Positions 50,946 to 58,435 of a stretch of 64,000 nt of DNA are shown here, in pieces. The DNA is taken from positions 1 to 64,000 of the forward strand of contig NZ_MRCC01000005.1 in assembly GCF_001904655.1 (NCBI RefSeq), written 5' to 3'. The DNA is from Chroogloeocystis siderophila 5.2 s.c.1 (GTDB lineage Bacteria; Cyanobacteriota; Cyanobacteriia; Cyanobacteriales; Chroococcidiopsidaceae). Below the pieces are notes generated by a model. That model saw only the letters and a list, made by a program, of their open reading frames with translations. It searched no databases and had not been told where the DNA came from. The position numbers and the translations under genes were made by a program. Position 1 is the stretch's first letter; each line of letters begins with the position of its first letter.

Positions 50946-52673
50946 ATGCTTGATTTTCGCAACACTAATACCGTTTGGGGTTCTATACTCGCAGAGACTT
51001 TTGGGCGGCTAGGGTTAAAAACCGCCGTGATTTGTCCAGGTTCGCGGTCTACACCACTGGCGATCGCCTTTACCCAAACTGATCGAGTCGAAGCCATACC
51101 CATTTTAGACGAACGTTCCGCAGCGTTTTTTGCTTTGGGAATTGCTCGTCAAACCAAACACCCTGTCGTGTTAGTTTGCACGTCTGGAACCGCCGCTGCA
51201 AATTTCTACCCTGCAATTATCGAAGCGCGAGAAAGCCAAGTTCCTTTGATTGTCTTAACCGCAGATCGTCCCCCTGAATTACGTGACTGTCATTCAGGAC
51301 AAACAATCGACCAAGTAAAGTTGTATGGCACATACGCCAACTGGTACGCTGAATTAGCACTACCCTCGTTAGAAATTGAGATGCTAGCGTACCTCCGCCA
51401 AACGCTGATTTATGCATGGGAGCGATCGCGCTATCCTGTTGCTGGAGTTGTGCATCTCAACATCCCCTTTCGCGATCCTTTAGCACCCATCCCCGACTCC
51501 ACCATCGCCGTATTCCAATCACAATTTAATTCACAAGATTTTTTCAACAGCATCCAATTACCAATTACCCATTACCAATTACCCATTACCCATCCCGAAG
51601 AATGGAAACAATGTGATCGTGGAATCATCATCGCCGGACTTGCCCAACCGCAACAACCACGCGAATATTGTGGTGCGATCGCCCAACTTGCTAAAACACT
51701 CAAATTTCCCGTACTCGCTGAAGCACTTTCCCCAGTCAGAAACTTTGCAGATCTTAACCCTTATCTCATTTCTACCTACGACTTGATTGTCCGCAATCCT
51801 CAGTTAGCACAACAGCTACAACCAAACATCGTAATTCAAATTGGGGAACTGCCCACAAGTAAAGATCTGCGTCAATGGCTAAGCGTGACTCAACCCCAGC
51901 GCTGGATTATTGACCCCTGCGATCATAATCTCGATCCTTTACACGGAAAAACAATTCATCTACGCACCACAGTAGAACAACTAGCGCAATCGATTGCACC
52001 GAAAGCACCAACTCCATATTTACAATTATGGTGTGATGTGGAAGCTAAAGTAAGGTCAGCGTGCGATCGCACAATGGCAGAAATTGACCATTTATTTGAA
52101 GGTAAAGCCGCCTGGTTACTGTCGCAAATTCTCCCACCAGAAACCCCCTTATTTATTGCTAATAGTATGCCCGTGCGCGATATGGAGTTTTTCTGGAAAC
52201 CGAGTAATTCTAATATCCGCCCATTTTTTAACCGTGGTGCAAATGGTATTGATGGCACATTGTCAACTGCCTTAGGAGTCGCACATCGCAATCACAGCAG
52301 TGTGTTACTAACTGGCGATTTGGCTTTATTACACGATACAAACGGTTTTTTAATTACTAATAAGTTTACTGGACATTTAACAATTGTTCTGATTAATAAT
52401 AACGGCGGTGGTATTTTTGAAATGTTACCTATCTCCAAATTTGAACCACCTTTTGAGGAGTTTTTTGCCACCCCACAAAATATAGATTTTGCTCAATTAT
52501 GTGCTACCTATAATGTAGAGCATGAGTTAATTCAATCTTGGGAACAATTGCAACAAAAATTAAATCCCCTTCCTGCAACAGGAATTAGAGTCTTGGAATT
52601 AAAAACAAATAGAAAATCTGATGCCAAATGGCGGAAAGAGAATTTAGGAAATCTTGCAGCGATTACTATGTGA
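50946..52673 (+). CDS. menD: 2-succinyl-5-enolpyruvyl-6-hydroxy-3-cyclohexene-1-carboxylate synthase
   Basis: Thiamine-diphosphate enzyme of phylloquinone/menaquinone synthesis. The 575-residue protein has CPGSRSTPLAIAF, ILDERSAAFFALGIARQT, PVVLVCTSGTAAANFYPAIIEA, and the ThDP motif region LTGDLALLHDTNGFL. Around residues 203-217 it has the insert LPITHYQLPITH, encoded by a dispersed ATTACCAATTACCC repeat; the frame is kept. The ATG at 50946 is used rather than a TTG two codons upstream. In phylloquinone synthesis it works with menB, 1.9 kb further on. Confidence 0.95.
   Translation: MLDFRNTNTVWGSILAETFGRLGLKTAVICPGSRSTPLAIAFTQTDRVEAIPILDERSAAFFALGIARQTKHPVVLVCTSGTAAANFYPAIIEARESQVPLIVLTADRPPELRDCHSGQTIDQVKLYGTYANWYAELALPSLEIEMLAYLRQTLIYAWERSRYPVAGVVHLNIPFRDPLAPIPDSTIAVFQSQFNSQDFFNSIQLPITHYQLPITHPEEWKQCDRGIIIAGLAQPQQPREYCGAIAQLAKTLKFPVLAEALSPVRNFADLNPYLISTYDLIVRNPQLAQQLQPNIVIQIGELPTSKDLRQWLSVTQPQRWIIDPCDHNLDPLHGKTIHLRTTVEQLAQSIAPKAPTPYLQLWCDVEAKVRSACDRTMAEIDHLFEGKAAWLLSQILPPETPLFIANSMPVRDMEFFWKPSNSNIRPFFNRGANGIDGTLSTALGVAHRNHSSVLLTGDLALLHDTNGFLITNKFTGHLTIVLINNNGGGIFEMLPISKFEPPFEEFFATPQNIDFAQLCATYNVEHELIQSWEQLQQKLNPLPATGIRVLELKTNRKSDAKWRKENLGNLAAITM
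51554..51593. repeat. ATTACCAATTACCC repeat inside menD
   Basis: About 40 bases of tandem CCAATTACC / CCATTACC units in frame within menD. A related stretch is at 31221-31246. In cyanobacteria such units are usually intergenic. Confidence 0.85.
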
Positions 52674-52749
52674 CTTTATTTCTCTTAGAGGTTTTCATAC
52701 GTTTATTTCTCTACTCCACAGTCCTGAGAGTTTCCAAACCAATCTCCAT

Positions 52750-52788
52750 TCAAACTCCCCCAAATTTGGGAGATTAGGGGGCAGAGCG
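52750..52788 (-). repeat. Dispersed CCCCCTAAATCTCCC repeat, copy 2
   Basis: Inverted version of 12358-12398 with small differences (CCCCCTAATCTCCC on the minus strand, then TTTGGGGGAGTTTGAA). It lies in the 227-base gap after menD. Confidence 0.7.
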
Positions 52789-52900
52789 AGTAACTTATTT
52801 TACTTTTAAAACACCGTCTTACCCCATGTTTTAACTCAGTAGCATTAGCAAAAGGGAATGATCGCAGGATTATATCTCCCGACTCATAGCTTTGCATTAG

Positions 52901-54434
52901 TTAAAGCGTGTCGTAGATACTATCTGACTGCTCATATCCAGCAAAGAATTGCTCTGCTGTTAGCTTAGACCAATCTACTTGATCTGATATATTTCCCTGG
53001 TTGCTGATCACTTCGTATTCGCGCCTAAACTCGTTGATTACAGTTTTTTTGATTAGCTGTTAACCAATTATCTTTCGAGAGTTTTCTAACACGCTCAATA
53101 ATCTTAGATAAATCAAGGAAATGCTCAAGCTGTTTCAGGTTAAGTCTATAAGATTTCCTTGAAACTACATCTGATGAAGCAATACTAAATGTTATTTGGA
53201 GGAACTTCTCTAGAAAGACAATTAGGCTTTCATCTTTGCTAACGACTTTTTCAACCCACTGCTTGACTTCTTTCTCTCCAGCCCAATCTTGCCAACGATA
53301 TAAAATACTTGCAAGCTTTGGTGTTTGCAGTAGGAGATCGTGCTGTGCAGCAAAACTTACTTTTTCTAAAGTAATTTTTTCTAGTTCTTGAAGATGCTGT
53401 TCGCTGACAATCCATTTATCTTCTGGATATGGCTTGTCTACCCCATACTTTCCATGTGCTTGACCATATGTTATAACTTCGTACTCAATTATTGAAAGAG
53501 CATTGCCGTTCTCGATTGCCTTTTTCAAAATACTAAAGCGTTCTTGTTCATCCAGCCTACGTAACATCTGGTAAATAACACGACCAATTCTAGTTTCATT
53601 CCCAAAATCAAACATTCTGCACTTGTCATCTTCAGGAAGTAGAAGCTGGTCGCCTATATTAAATAAAGCTTGTACAATTAAAGGAATTCTTTCCAGAGGA
53701 ATTTCTTCTGTAGTGTAATCTTCAAGCCGCTCAAGAAATAGTCTAGCTCTAGTAATTCCATCTGGGTGTTTTTGCTTGCTAAGTTCCACAAGCTTTTCTT
53801 TAAATTTTTTTACATCATCTACTAAAGCAAGAATCTCTTTTAGCTCAAAGTTTGAGAAATCACCTCCTGGTATTGCTAACTGAAAATATCTTGGAAAGAT
53901 CTCTGGGCTACATATACGAAGTCTCTTACGCCATAGTGACTCAGATTTTACAACAGTAAAAATAGTATTATTTCTCCACACAGATTGGAACTTAGGAAAA
54001 AGGCGTAGAAGTAACTTTTTGGCTGTCTCTCTGTCTTCTTCTTGAACTGTAGCAAGGCATGAGTTATAAAGAGATTTTATTGCTTCGCTTGTAGAGGTGT
54101 GAGTACTCCCAGTATCAAAATATCCAATAAACGCTTCAGGATTCTTCTGGATTATGTTATACATTGCCGAGCAAAACACACGGAGTGATTCAATAACAAT
54201 AGTGAATGATGAAGTTCAACAGTGTTGATTTACCTAAACCCCAAGGAGCACATAGACTGCCGTAACGAAACCTTGAGGTGGTGACATCTTGCAAATACTA
54301 TCTGCAAGATTTTTCGCAAAGGGTGCATATCCTAGTCGATCATGTTCTGGATTTTTAAGAGGGTTGTCTGCTGATAGGACATTTAAATCCTCATTTTCTA
54401 CATCAGTGTTACTCTCAATCTGCGTCATAATCAA
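52901..54434 (-). pseudogene. KAP-family P-loop NTPase, broken by two frameshifts and a deletion
   Basis: From 54434 the frame reads LSADNPLKNPEHDRLGYAPF and ends FVTAVY before going out of frame. One base over, it continues GAPWGLGKSTLLNFIIHY, the Walker A of KAP NTPases. Then at about 54200 it jumps to IESLRVFCSAMYNIIQKNPEAF, a segment normally some 250 residues later, so the Walker B core has been deleted. The next 384-codon frame is intact to 53025. There an extra base in a seven-A run near 53044-53050 diverts it; one base less would continue VINEFRREYEVISNQGN to a stop at 52901. KAP NTPases are membrane-associated and often defence-linked. This one cannot be active as read. Confidence 0.87.
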
Positions 54435-54569
54435 CTGTGCGTCTTAGTTCTATTGTCATAATGGCATAGTGATTACACCTTAACCTTCTGACATCTTGGC
54501 TATGCTATTCAGCACACATACTAGACATTGAGTTAAAATTCTCAAACTGGAAGCGCGATCGCACACTTT

Positions 54570-55400
54570 ATGCAAAACTGGCAAACGGCTAAAACCTACG
54601 AAGATATCCTCTATCACAAAACCGACGGTATTGCCAAAATTACCATCAATCGTCCGCACAAGCGGAATGCGTTTCGTCCCAAAACTGTCTTTGAACTTTA
54701 CGATGCTTTTGTTGATGCTCGTGAAGATACGAGTATTGGTGTTGTTTTATTTACAGGTGCAGGACCACATACAGATGGTAAATACGCATTTTGTGCGGGG
54801 GGAGATCAAAGTGTGAGGGGAACTGCGGGATATGTTGATGATGAAGGTGTTCCTCGGTTGAATGTATTAGATTTACAACGGTTAATTCGTTCGATGCCGA
54901 AAGTCGTCATCGCGCTTGTTGCTGGGTATGCGATCGGCGGCGGACATGTACTGCATTTGATTTGCGACTTAACAATTGCTGCGGATAACGCAATTTTTGG
55001 TCAAACAGGTCCTAAAGTGGGTAGTTTTGATGGTGGATTTGGTGCAAGTTACCTTGCCCGTATTGTCGGGCAAAAAAAAGCGCGAGAAATTTGGTTTCTC
55101 TGTCGCCAATACACCGCAGCCCAAGCTTTAGAAATGGGTCTAGTTAATTGCGTTGTGCCTGTAGAACAACTAGAGGCCGAAGGAATTCAATGGGCAAACG
55201 AAATTTTAGAAAAAAGCCCGATCGCAATTCGCTGTCTTAAAGCTGCATTCAATGCTGATTGTGATGGTCAAGCAGGTTTACAAGAACTTGCCGGCAATGC
55301 AACTTTACTCTACTACATGACTGAAGAAGGAGCCGAAGGAAAACAGGCTTTCTTAGAAAAGCGTAAACCTGATTTTCGTCAATACCCTTGGCTACCTTAA
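54570..55400 (+). CDS. menB: 1,4-dihydroxy-2-naphthoyl-CoA synthase
   Basis: Crotonase-fold enzyme that closes the naphthoquinone ring from o-succinylbenzoyl-CoA. The 276 residues include [37 protein letters not shown], the oxyanion-hole region [48 protein letters not shown], and [17 protein letters not shown], all MenB-specific. It makes the phylloquinone nucleus used in photosystem I. It is on the same strand as menD, with the KAP pseudogene in between. It overlaps the stop of the next, convergent gene. Confidence 0.96.
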
Positions 55401-56085: not shown

Positions 56086-56634
56086 TTACCATTTTTTAGC
56101 AGCACAAAACGAGCAGACTTGCCAGCGCTGTAGTTCTCCTGGAGGTGTAGGAGATTGACATTGCGGACAAAGGGGTAGCCCGCGTGATCGCGATCGCGTC
56201 GTATTCTGCCAATGTTGAAATGCCGCACGTGGATTTTCTGGCACAGCGCGGAGGTGATTTTTACGCGTCGCCGCTGTGACAATATAGCTAGGATGATCGT
56301 TTTTTATTGGGGTATTGTCTTGGTTAATCGTTGGCGATCGCTGCCATCCTGCTGTAGAGAAGCGAATATCAACTAAGAGATTATTTGGTGGTAAATAAGG
56401 GTTGAGTTTCGTTAAGATGCGCTGGCGTTCAAAAGTAAGATTTTGCGCCCAAGCCGCGCTCGATGTTGCCACCCACAAAATATTACGTTGAATCGAAAGC
56501 GGGTGCGTATGCGCCGCCACCGCAGCACCAACAACATCAGCCCAACACTTAACGACCCGTGGCAACGGTTGCTCGTGCAAAGCGTTCTGCTCAATAAAAG
56601 CACCCACAAGTTGCTCAAGCGATTTGAAAGACAT
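56086..56634 (-). CDS. DciA-like (DUF721) protein with zinc ribbon
   Basis: A 182-residue protein. The N-terminal DUF721/DciA domain reads LPRVVKCWADVVGAAVAAHTHPLSIQRNILWVATSSAAWAQNLTFERQRILTKLN. DciA loads the replicative helicase DnaB in bacteria lacking DnaC/DnaI. The C-terminus adds a zinc ribbon, CPQCQSPTPPGELQRWQVCSFC, seen in many cyanobacterial versions. The length is typical. It is divergent from the pspA gene. Confidence 0.85.
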   Translation of the reverse strand: MSFKSLEQLVGAFIEQNALHEQPLPRVVKCWADVVGAAVAAHTHPLSIQRNILWVATSSAAWAQNLTFERQRILTKLNPYLPPNNLLVDIRFSTAGWQRSPTINQDNTPIKNDHPSYIVTAATRKNHLRAVPENPRAAFQHWQNTTRSRSRGLPLCPQCQSPTPPGELQRWQVCSFCAAKKW

Positions 56635-56778
56635 TTTTGATAGGTGCTCAAAAGGGGAGGTTAGCGACAGAGAAGGTACGATACCATGATTTTAATACTC
56701 CGACTAAGATGTTACCAGTTGGTGCGTTGCGGTCGGAACGGGCAAGGTGCAGCTTTTGTAACCAAACGGAGAGCCATC

Positions 56779-57504
56779 ATGGGATTGATTGACCGCATCG
56801 GGCGGGTGTTTAGATCGAATGTCAATTCTTTAGTCAGTAATGCGGAAGACCCAGAAAAAATTCTAGAGCAGACAGTCGCACAGATGCAGGATGAACTCGT
56901 GCAACTCAGGCAAGCGGTAGCAAGTGCGATCGCCACACAAAAACGTACCGAACGTCAAGCACAACAAGCTCAATTTACCGCCGAAGAATGGTATCGCCGC
57001 GCGCAACTAGCACTGCAACAAGGAAATGATACCTTAGCCCGCGAAGCTTTAACAAAACGCAAGTCTTATCAAGAAACTGCCAGCGCCATGCAATCGCAAA
57101 TCGAGCAACAAAATGCGATCATCAGTCGCATGAAAAAGGATATGCAGATGCTAGAAAGCAAAATATCCGAAGCCAAATCGAAAAAAGATATGTTTATTGC
57201 ACGGGCGCGATCAGCAGAAGCAACCGCAAGACTCAATGAAATGCTAGGTGGAGTGAATACGAGTCAATCCTTAGGTGCTTTTGAACGCATGGAAGAACGG
57301 GTGATGCAACTCGAAGCGCAATCAGAATTAATCGCCGACATGGGAACCGACGATTTACAAAAACAATTCGACTCGCTAGCAACAGATGATAATATTGATG
57401 CTGAACTCGCACGCATGAAAGCACAACTACCAGGTAAGCCAAACTCACCGCAATTACCTGGAATGTCTACTACTCAAGATAGAAATCTCGAACGTAGGGA
57501 ATAG
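56779..57504 (+). CDS. pspA: PspA/IM30-family protein, short form
   Basis: A 241-residue, almost wholly helical ESCRT-III-like protein. It starts MGLIDRIGRVFRSNVNSLVSNAEDPEKIL (amphipathic membrane-binding helix) and runs through long coiled-coil helices: LVQLRQAVASAIATQKRTERQAQQAQ, ESKISEAKSKKDMFIARARSAEA. It lacks the extra C-terminal helix of VIPP1, so it is read as bacterial-type PspA. The ATG at 56779 is chosen since earlier residues are not family-like. It is followed by a longer paralogue. Confidence 0.9.
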   Translation: MGLIDRIGRVFRSNVNSLVSNAEDPEKILEQTVAQMQDELVQLRQAVASAIATQKRTERQAQQAQFTAEEWYRRAQLALQQGNDTLAREALTKRKSYQETASAMQSQIEQQNAIISRMKKDMQMLESKISEAKSKKDMFIARARSAEATARLNEMLGGVNTSQSLGAFERMEERVMQLEAQSELIADMGTDDLQKQFDSLATDDNIDAELARMKAQLPGKPNSPQLPGMSTTQDRNLERRE

Positions 57505-57664
57505 CATTTTCTATAGAAATTAATAAAAATTGCCTAACTATCACAACGCCAACTAAGTACTAGGCTTATGTTAGGAATAGAAACTCTTTTGATTTTGGTG
57601 TTGAACTGAGTAAAACAAAATTACAACGCTCAACCTATCTTGCACACATTAAGAGAACAAAGTT

Positions 57665-58435
57665 ATGGGATTATTTGATCGAATCAGTCGGGTCGTCAAA
57701 GCTAACCTCAACGACATGGTGAGCAAAGCCGAAGACCCAGAAAAAATGCTCGAACAGTCGCTGCTAGAAATGCAGGAAGACTTAGTGCAACTACGTCAGA
57801 GTGTCGCCCAAGCGATCGCCGCGCAACGACGCACCGAACAACAGTACAATCAAGCACAAAACGAAGCAAACAAGTGGCAGCGTAATGCCCAACTCGCACT
57901 GCAAAAAGGCGACGAAAACTTAGCCCGCCAAGCCCTCGAACGCAAGAAAACCTACGCCGAAACAGCGAATGCCTTGCGTGGTAGTCTCGAGCAACAAACA
58001 AGCCAAATTGACACGCTCAAGCGTAACCTAATTGCCCTAGAAAGCAAAATATCCGAAGCCAAAACGAAGAAAGATATGCTCAAGGCACGGATCACCGCGG
58101 CGAAAGCCCAAGAACAACTGCAAGGTGCTGTTGGTAGAATGGGAACAAGCAGTGCAATGGCAGCGTTTGAGCGGATGGAAGAAAAAGTCATGCTGCAAGA
58201 AGCCCGCGCACAATCCGCCGCTGAGTTAGCAACAGATAATCTCGAAAGTCAGTTCGCGGCGCTAGAAGCCGGCAGTGATGTTGACGACGAACTCGCCGCG
58301 CTTAAAGCGCAAATGTCGCTGCCAGGAGGTTCACCGCAGCAAGCATCGCTCCCACCCTCAGAACAATCATCACCCAAATCTGAGCCAGTTGATGCTGAAT
58401 TAGAGCAACTGAAAAAACAGCTAGACCAATTGTAA
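57665..58435 (+). CDS. vipp1: VIPP1 (IM30), thylakoid membrane-shaping protein
   Basis: A 256-residue paralogue of the preceding gene: MGLFDRISRVVKANLNDMVSKAEDPEKMLEQ, then the same coiled-coil order. It has a linker of Pro, Ser and Gln and an extra C-terminal helix DAELEQLKKQLDQL, the hallmark of VIPP1. It forms rings and rods that maintain thylakoid membranes. It lies 160 bases after pspA in the same orientation; the pair is the product of an ancient duplication. Confidence 0.92.
   Translation: MGLFDRISRVVKANLNDMVSKAEDPEKMLEQSLLEMQEDLVQLRQSVAQAIAAQRRTEQQYNQAQNEANKWQRNAQLALQKGDENLARQALERKKTYAETANALRGSLEQQTSQIDTLKRNLIALESKISEAKTKKDMLKARITAAKAQEQLQGAVGRMGTSSAMAAFERMEEKVMLQEARAQSAAELATDNLESQFAALEAGSDVDDELAALKAQMSLPGGSPQQASLPPSEQSSPKSEPVDAELEQLKKQLDQL

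Follow-up and report, generated by a model that had tools for sequence, protein, structure and literature searches.

A decayed PifA-like KAP NTPase gene between menD and menB in a cyanobacterial genome

The window, that is the whole stretch of DNA analysed here, is the opening 64 kb of C5, a contig of 317,808 bases in a 5.0 Mb draft genome that has 43 contigs and is 99.81% complete. Between menD and menB, where the sequence-only reading had placed it, the minus strand carries a broken KAP NTPase gene with three lesions (+2, -734 and +1 bases), followed by relics of an antitoxin gene and of a PemK/MazF-like toxin gene (Table 1). Both flanking genes are intact and score above their NCBIfam cut-offs.

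Table 1. Features of the menD-menB interval in the window
Feature	Coordinates	Strand	Basis
menD, intact left neighbour	50946..52673	+	NCBIfam TIGR00173, 491 bits vs cut-off 244
PemK/MazF-like toxin relic, about first 23 codons, rest gone	52828..52897	-	DNA match to G010
Antitoxin relic, about last 26 codons, joined directly to KAP tail	52901..52981	-	DNA match to G010, G002, G011
KAP C-terminal tail, slipped frame	52985..53043	-	+1 base at 53044 vs G056, G432; three-frame reading
384-codon ORF, C-terminal half of PifA-like KAP protein	53025..54179	-	KAP homology down to about 53040; PADLOC PifA
Junction of 734-base deletion, which took Walker B and the rest of the P-loop domain beyond Walker A	54199..54201	-	tblastn and DNA alignment
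Walker A relic, shifted frame (GLGKSTLLNF)	54199..54252	-	tblastn frame -3; +2 bases at 54253
Upstream 66-codon ORF	54234..54434	-	ORF list
N-terminal KAP piece from ATG to in-frame stop	54252..54428	-	tblastn; PifA model positions 4-45
Spacer between divergent KAP and menB starts	54429..54569		DNA match to G002 up to KAP start codon
menB, intact right neighbour	54570..55400	+	NCBIfam NF005637, 503 bits vs cut-off 380

The description of this gene as a multiply broken remnant is confirmed by the lesions mapped against intact relatives. DNA alignment with the intact G056 copy, G432 included, puts two extra bases at 54253, the loss of 734 at 54201 and one extra base at 53044. In tblastn with four intact homologues (L004-L007) the N-terminus corresponds, at 54-63% identity, to 54428-54252 in frame -1, the Walker A region follows in frame -3 and ends at 54199, and the C-terminal half runs in frame -1 from 54200 to 53031/53040 with 48-51% identity and E values of 3e-118 to 5e-131, far from chance. 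The net +2 shift falls inside Walker A (about 54253), as had been proposed, and the shifted frame then runs on for about 14 residues. At 54201/54200 the alignment jumps to L004 residue 347. The Walker B core is indeed gone, but the deletion is larger than first described: it took about 244 codons (L004 residues 103-346), starting some 10 residues after Walker A and reaching beyond the P-loop domain, which Pfam places at L004 residues 60-335. The +2 and -734 changes sum to a multiple of three, so that the N-terminal piece, which keeps the conserved start at 54428, and the 384-codon ORF lie in one frame, with two in-frame stops between them. The +1 shift lies in a run of A near the C-terminus and ends the 384-codon frame early, while the KAP tail carries on in another frame to about 52985, where in a three-frame reading it joins the antitoxin remnant. 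Neither the 66-codon nor the 384-codon ORF has a Pfam match. Walker A and Walker B are not found together in one frame, the former being out of frame and the latter deleted, and the window copy cannot act as an NTPase because its P-loop domain is gone.

The interval 52901-54434 had been assigned to KAP as a whole. This holds down to near 52985, while 52901-52981 was rejected as KAP sequence, its DNA matching an antitoxin gene in G010, G002 and G011. Positions 52828-52981 are 94.8% identical over 154 bases to G010, in which an intact antitoxin-toxin pair lies beside menD (L014), and the antitoxin match is limited to residues 44-79 of the 79-residue G010 frame. The intact G010 toxin gene matches PF02452 with 48.4 bits (cut-off 23.1), and the toxin remnant alone in the window has no Pfam match. 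In the corresponding interval of G002 the antitoxin is present and the toxin is not. With about 23 toxin and 26 antitoxin codons left, the window holds neither a complete toxin domain nor a whole antitoxin upstream of it. Three adjacent genes are truncated, and the string KAP-antitoxin-toxin has decayed. Most of the toxin gene is replaced by sequence at 52676-52827 that contains a C/G-rich inverted stretch. The stretch 52676-52835 was considered as a clear genome repeat and rejected, since only four other partial matches of 21-38 bases were found. The same order of KAP (broken), antitoxin and toxin occurs in G011 at a different site, away from menB: contig C140 (L025:5900-8523) holds a broken PifA-like gene, with an intact antitoxin gene and a PemK-like toxin gene downstream of it. 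A sister relationship of the window copy and the broken G011 copy was rejected (p-AU 1e-6; the G011 C-terminal half sits on another branch of the tree).

The product of the 384-codon ORF matches the PADLOC PifA model (PDLC02361) at positions 359-710 of 720 (E 2.6e-48) and the N-terminal piece matches it at positions 4-45. The intact relatives L004-L007 match nearly end to end with E values of 4e-110 to 6e-116 (positions 3-710 in L004), and four long proteins among the intact relatives match Pfam KAP_NTPase (PF07693) with E values of 7e-53 to 1.5e-60, or 180-205 bits against a cut-off of 20. Alignment to full KAP NTPases, proposed as a check, shows the window copy as a broken member among full-length relatives. 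Intact copies in G056, G029, G050 and G006 are 726-757 amino acids long and the 384-residue match is their second half, in line with the proposal that the long frame is the rest of the gene. Among 38 rows checked for Walker motifs, two of which lack the region, GK[ST]T of Walker A and the Walker B aspartate region were present in all 36 rows that hold it, with D changed to E at one position in L036 and L037. Many KAP proteins have transmembrane helices inserted in the P-loop domain; in 18 intact relatives the highest 19-residue hydropathy mean was 1.24-1.65, with no strong membrane segment seen. The predicted structure of the second half is mainly helical with a mean pLDDT of 76, its first 100 residues or so being mostly poor. 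Foldseek with the 384-residue model gave no match at E <= 0.001, and a second fold comparison gave helical-repeat look-alikes up to Z 7.5, which may reflect a common arrangement only. A sequence search of solved structures found no convincing relative (best E 0.15).

In the window genome the PifA model finds the menD-menB locus and no other. Two further KAP matches (24.7 and 19.8 bits, the latter 20.4 with its neighbours) were rejected as additional KAP genes, both being missed by the PifA model. Named relatives of the gene are mostly cyanobacterial. A search of plasmids with the intact protein returned 1063 records, among them plasmid A of Trichormus variabilis (44.6% identity), and the same search of phage records gave one match, weak and partial. 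The Trichormus copy (L030:6037-8157) is an intact KAP gene on a conjugative plasmid, beside a restriction endonuclease gene, which indicates that the KAP family also travels on plasmids in cyanobacteria. Most Nostocales-type copies (L038-L060) are short, 587-622 amino acids, their match to L004 stopping near residue 621-629, so there is a natural form that lacks roughly the last 120 residues. A KAP scrap with three stops in its C-terminal match lies in G455 (L126:7518-7953), and Nostoc mirabile holds a 142-residue N-terminal KAP frame that is a relic (L074:4998-5423), so decay seems common in the PifA-like KAP family.

The site itself was surveyed in 60 genomes, our own and 59 relatives, 58 of which have a menB match and 58 a menD match. 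menD and menB lie within 8 kb of each other in ten of the relatives (G002, G004, G010, G012, G014, G020, G022, G038, G052 and G056). In the suggested comparison of the interval among relatives, an intact KAP gene lies between menD and menB in G056, in G432 of the same genus and in L072, an uncultured cyanobacterium, and it is absent in G002. Four Rhizonema/Scytonema loci (L042, L044, L049, L050) have an intact KAP gene next to menB. In the comparison of neighbours menB is just upstream and divergent in 7 of 46 loci. Other copies occupy different sites, which are repeated within a lineage: in Calothrix, for instance, the neighbour is an EF-G-like gene, and in Microcoleus and part of the Nostoc copies it is an MFS-like gene, the names of these two neighbours having been assigned by eye. 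G002, which belongs to the genus of the window, is 86% identical to it over 54426-54700, a match that starts in menB and spans the spacer as far as the KAP start codon; no KAP DNA follows beyond that codon. G001, G004, G010 and G014 match the window only from 54528-54534. The menB match of G011 (G011:C126:33168-33989) has five stops (2 TGA, 3 TAA) and 72% identity as against 83% or more in other relatives, which reflects either genuine decay or poor sequence quality, the G011 genome being 73% complete. In the window, two adjacent genes of the PspA/IM30 family (172 and 209 bits) occupy 56686-58435, and a DciA-like gene lies on the opposite strand to them at 56086-56634. Literature searches listed no paper about a cyanobacterial KAP or PifA gene next to menB.

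We consider the locus to be very probably a pseudogene of a PifA-like KAP NTPase, with the 384-codon frame as debris and not a working new protein. The gene once stood divergent from menB, as intact copies elsewhere still do; its catalytic domain was lost through the shift in Walker A and the large deletion, and its end through the +1 shift, with the downstream antitoxin and PemK-like toxin genes truncated too. It is quite unlikely that the frame is instead a functional C-terminal domain, separately translated and kept without the NTPase. Such a domain would agree with the 384 codons free of stops, since 4.8% of single substitutions create one and 5% neutral divergence leads to 2.8 expected stops (P of none 0.06), with conserved columns mostly kept (deviations at 3/29 and 17/111, within the range of intact rows) and with possible starts at GTG 54179 and ATG 54164. 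A recent break accounts for the open frame equally well, however, and the constraint test on 37 loci and the window did not tell recent loss from kept function, as kept function would give the same open frame and ordinary deviation. The end of the ORF is also altered by a shift, no ribosome-binding site was seen by eye before the GTG, and the neighbouring genes are broken too. Intact homologues of the 384-residue protein standing alone had been set in advance as the result contrary to a remnant, and none appeared in the three sets searched, which overlap and include our own genome: the 60 genomes of the survey, 386 genomes from the phylum and 388 from the order. Matches to the protein occurred in 8 of the 60 genomes, own included, those in G032 and G028 being weak. 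Outside the window, C-terminal matches lie in open frames of 551-830 amino acids, except in G455, in G011, where the copy is broken into frames of 295 and 341, and in G028, whose 470-residue frame comprises the KAP part plus a small portion of the C-terminal part. All ten pairs of intact copies that were compared show purifying selection, with dN/dS of 0.18-0.31. The window gene was probably also under selection until recently and its inactivation is probably recent, because no stop interrupts the surviving frame and its divergence is not out of the ordinary. Errors of assembly or sequencing in an intact gene are an extremely improbable cause of the lesions. Although the genome is a draft and one shift lies in a run of A, a long contig of a nearly complete genome here lacks 734 KAP bases, the beginning of the antitoxin gene and most of the toxin gene.

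From the sequence comparisons the window gene looks like an old resident beside menB that was lost, rather than a recent visitor. The spacer kept in G002 up to the KAP start suggests that the ancestor of the genus already had the gene, and G002 can be read as the scar of a separate loss. It is unlikely, although it carries some weight, that the gene was never resident and that PifA-like genes were inserted beside menB several times, with the window copy arriving and decaying on its own. The tree has 43 rows, the window and 42 loci; these were chosen from 76 compared loci after removal of same-genome duplicates, near copies, fragments and distant rows. On it the window copy branches deepest within the clade to which every menB-linked copy belongs, but its end branch is the longest (0.54) and its placement is uncertain. 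The menB-linked copies as one clade were rejected by the AU test (p-AU 1e-5), homologues are found on plasmids, and only G056 has a KAP match among the ten relatives with menD and menB close together, all of which would agree with repeated insertion. Against this, the menB-linkage label changes three times on the tree, which one gain and two losses would satisfy, the orientation at the menB start is the same divergent one in all seven other menB-linked loci, and the spacer is common to the window and G002. Going further than loss of an old resident, one could speculate that in several cyanobacterial families the PifA-like NTPase divergent from menB has long been its partner, linked to it through a common control region or the quinone state of the membrane, for example as a guard sensing membrane damage by phages, and that here guard and downstream toxin-antitoxin pair were lost together; we consider this very improbable.

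We regard the locus as ordinary gene decay of a known kind and a well-documented pseudogene. With relatives that have intact copies at the same site, it clearly illustrates how a PifA-like gene is lost, and recognizing it prevents the annotation of a 384-residue fragment as a novel protein. In several cyanobacterial lineages PifA-like genes are established on the chromosome next to menB, and if intact copies exclude cyanophages, the menB site could be used as a marker of whether that defence has been gained or lost.

Among known systems, the relics downstream resemble the type II pair of the PemK/MazF kind: they match the intact pairs of G010 and G011, both toxins of which match PF02452, but both genes are truncated in the window, and the G010 antitoxin has no NCBIfam model above cut-off (RelN, 19.6 vs 70). 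Intact relatives of the gene are like KAP P-loop NTPases (PF07693) in keeping Walker A and B, while the window copy has only part of Walker A, out of frame. The P-loop part of L004 also matches QatA, the ATPase of the Qat anti-phage system, but weakly (54.6 bits), far under the curated cut-off of 600, and PADLOC PifA outscores it by 387 to 52 bits. The closest likeness is with PifA of the F plasmid, known for exclusion of phage T7. One PADLOC model spans the intact cyanobacterial relatives nearly end to end, and the intact cyanobacterial protein has about 23% identity over 93% of its length to plasmid genes of Klebsiella and E. coli, for some of which pifC is annotated under the match. In contrast, the copies in these cyanobacteria are chromosomal with no pifC seen beside those looked at, and the window copy is without the NTPase domain. 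A passage of PMC8594841 describes PifA as an abortive-infection protein, believed to act by sensing T7 proteins and killing through membrane depolarisation, and the same source doubts that immunity is its main role. We found no experiment in the literature on the function of a PifA-like gene in cyanobacteria. The link of the KAP gene to defence, raised already in the sequence-only reading, appears strengthened by the PADLOC match, and a role like that of PifA is our best guess for the intact cyanobacterial gene. Its product, a PifA-like NTPase with a helical C-terminal half, would respond to phage infection by stopping the infected cell, whereas the C-terminal half surviving in the window, without a P-loop domain, would have neither NTPase action nor the capacity of a working defence protein.
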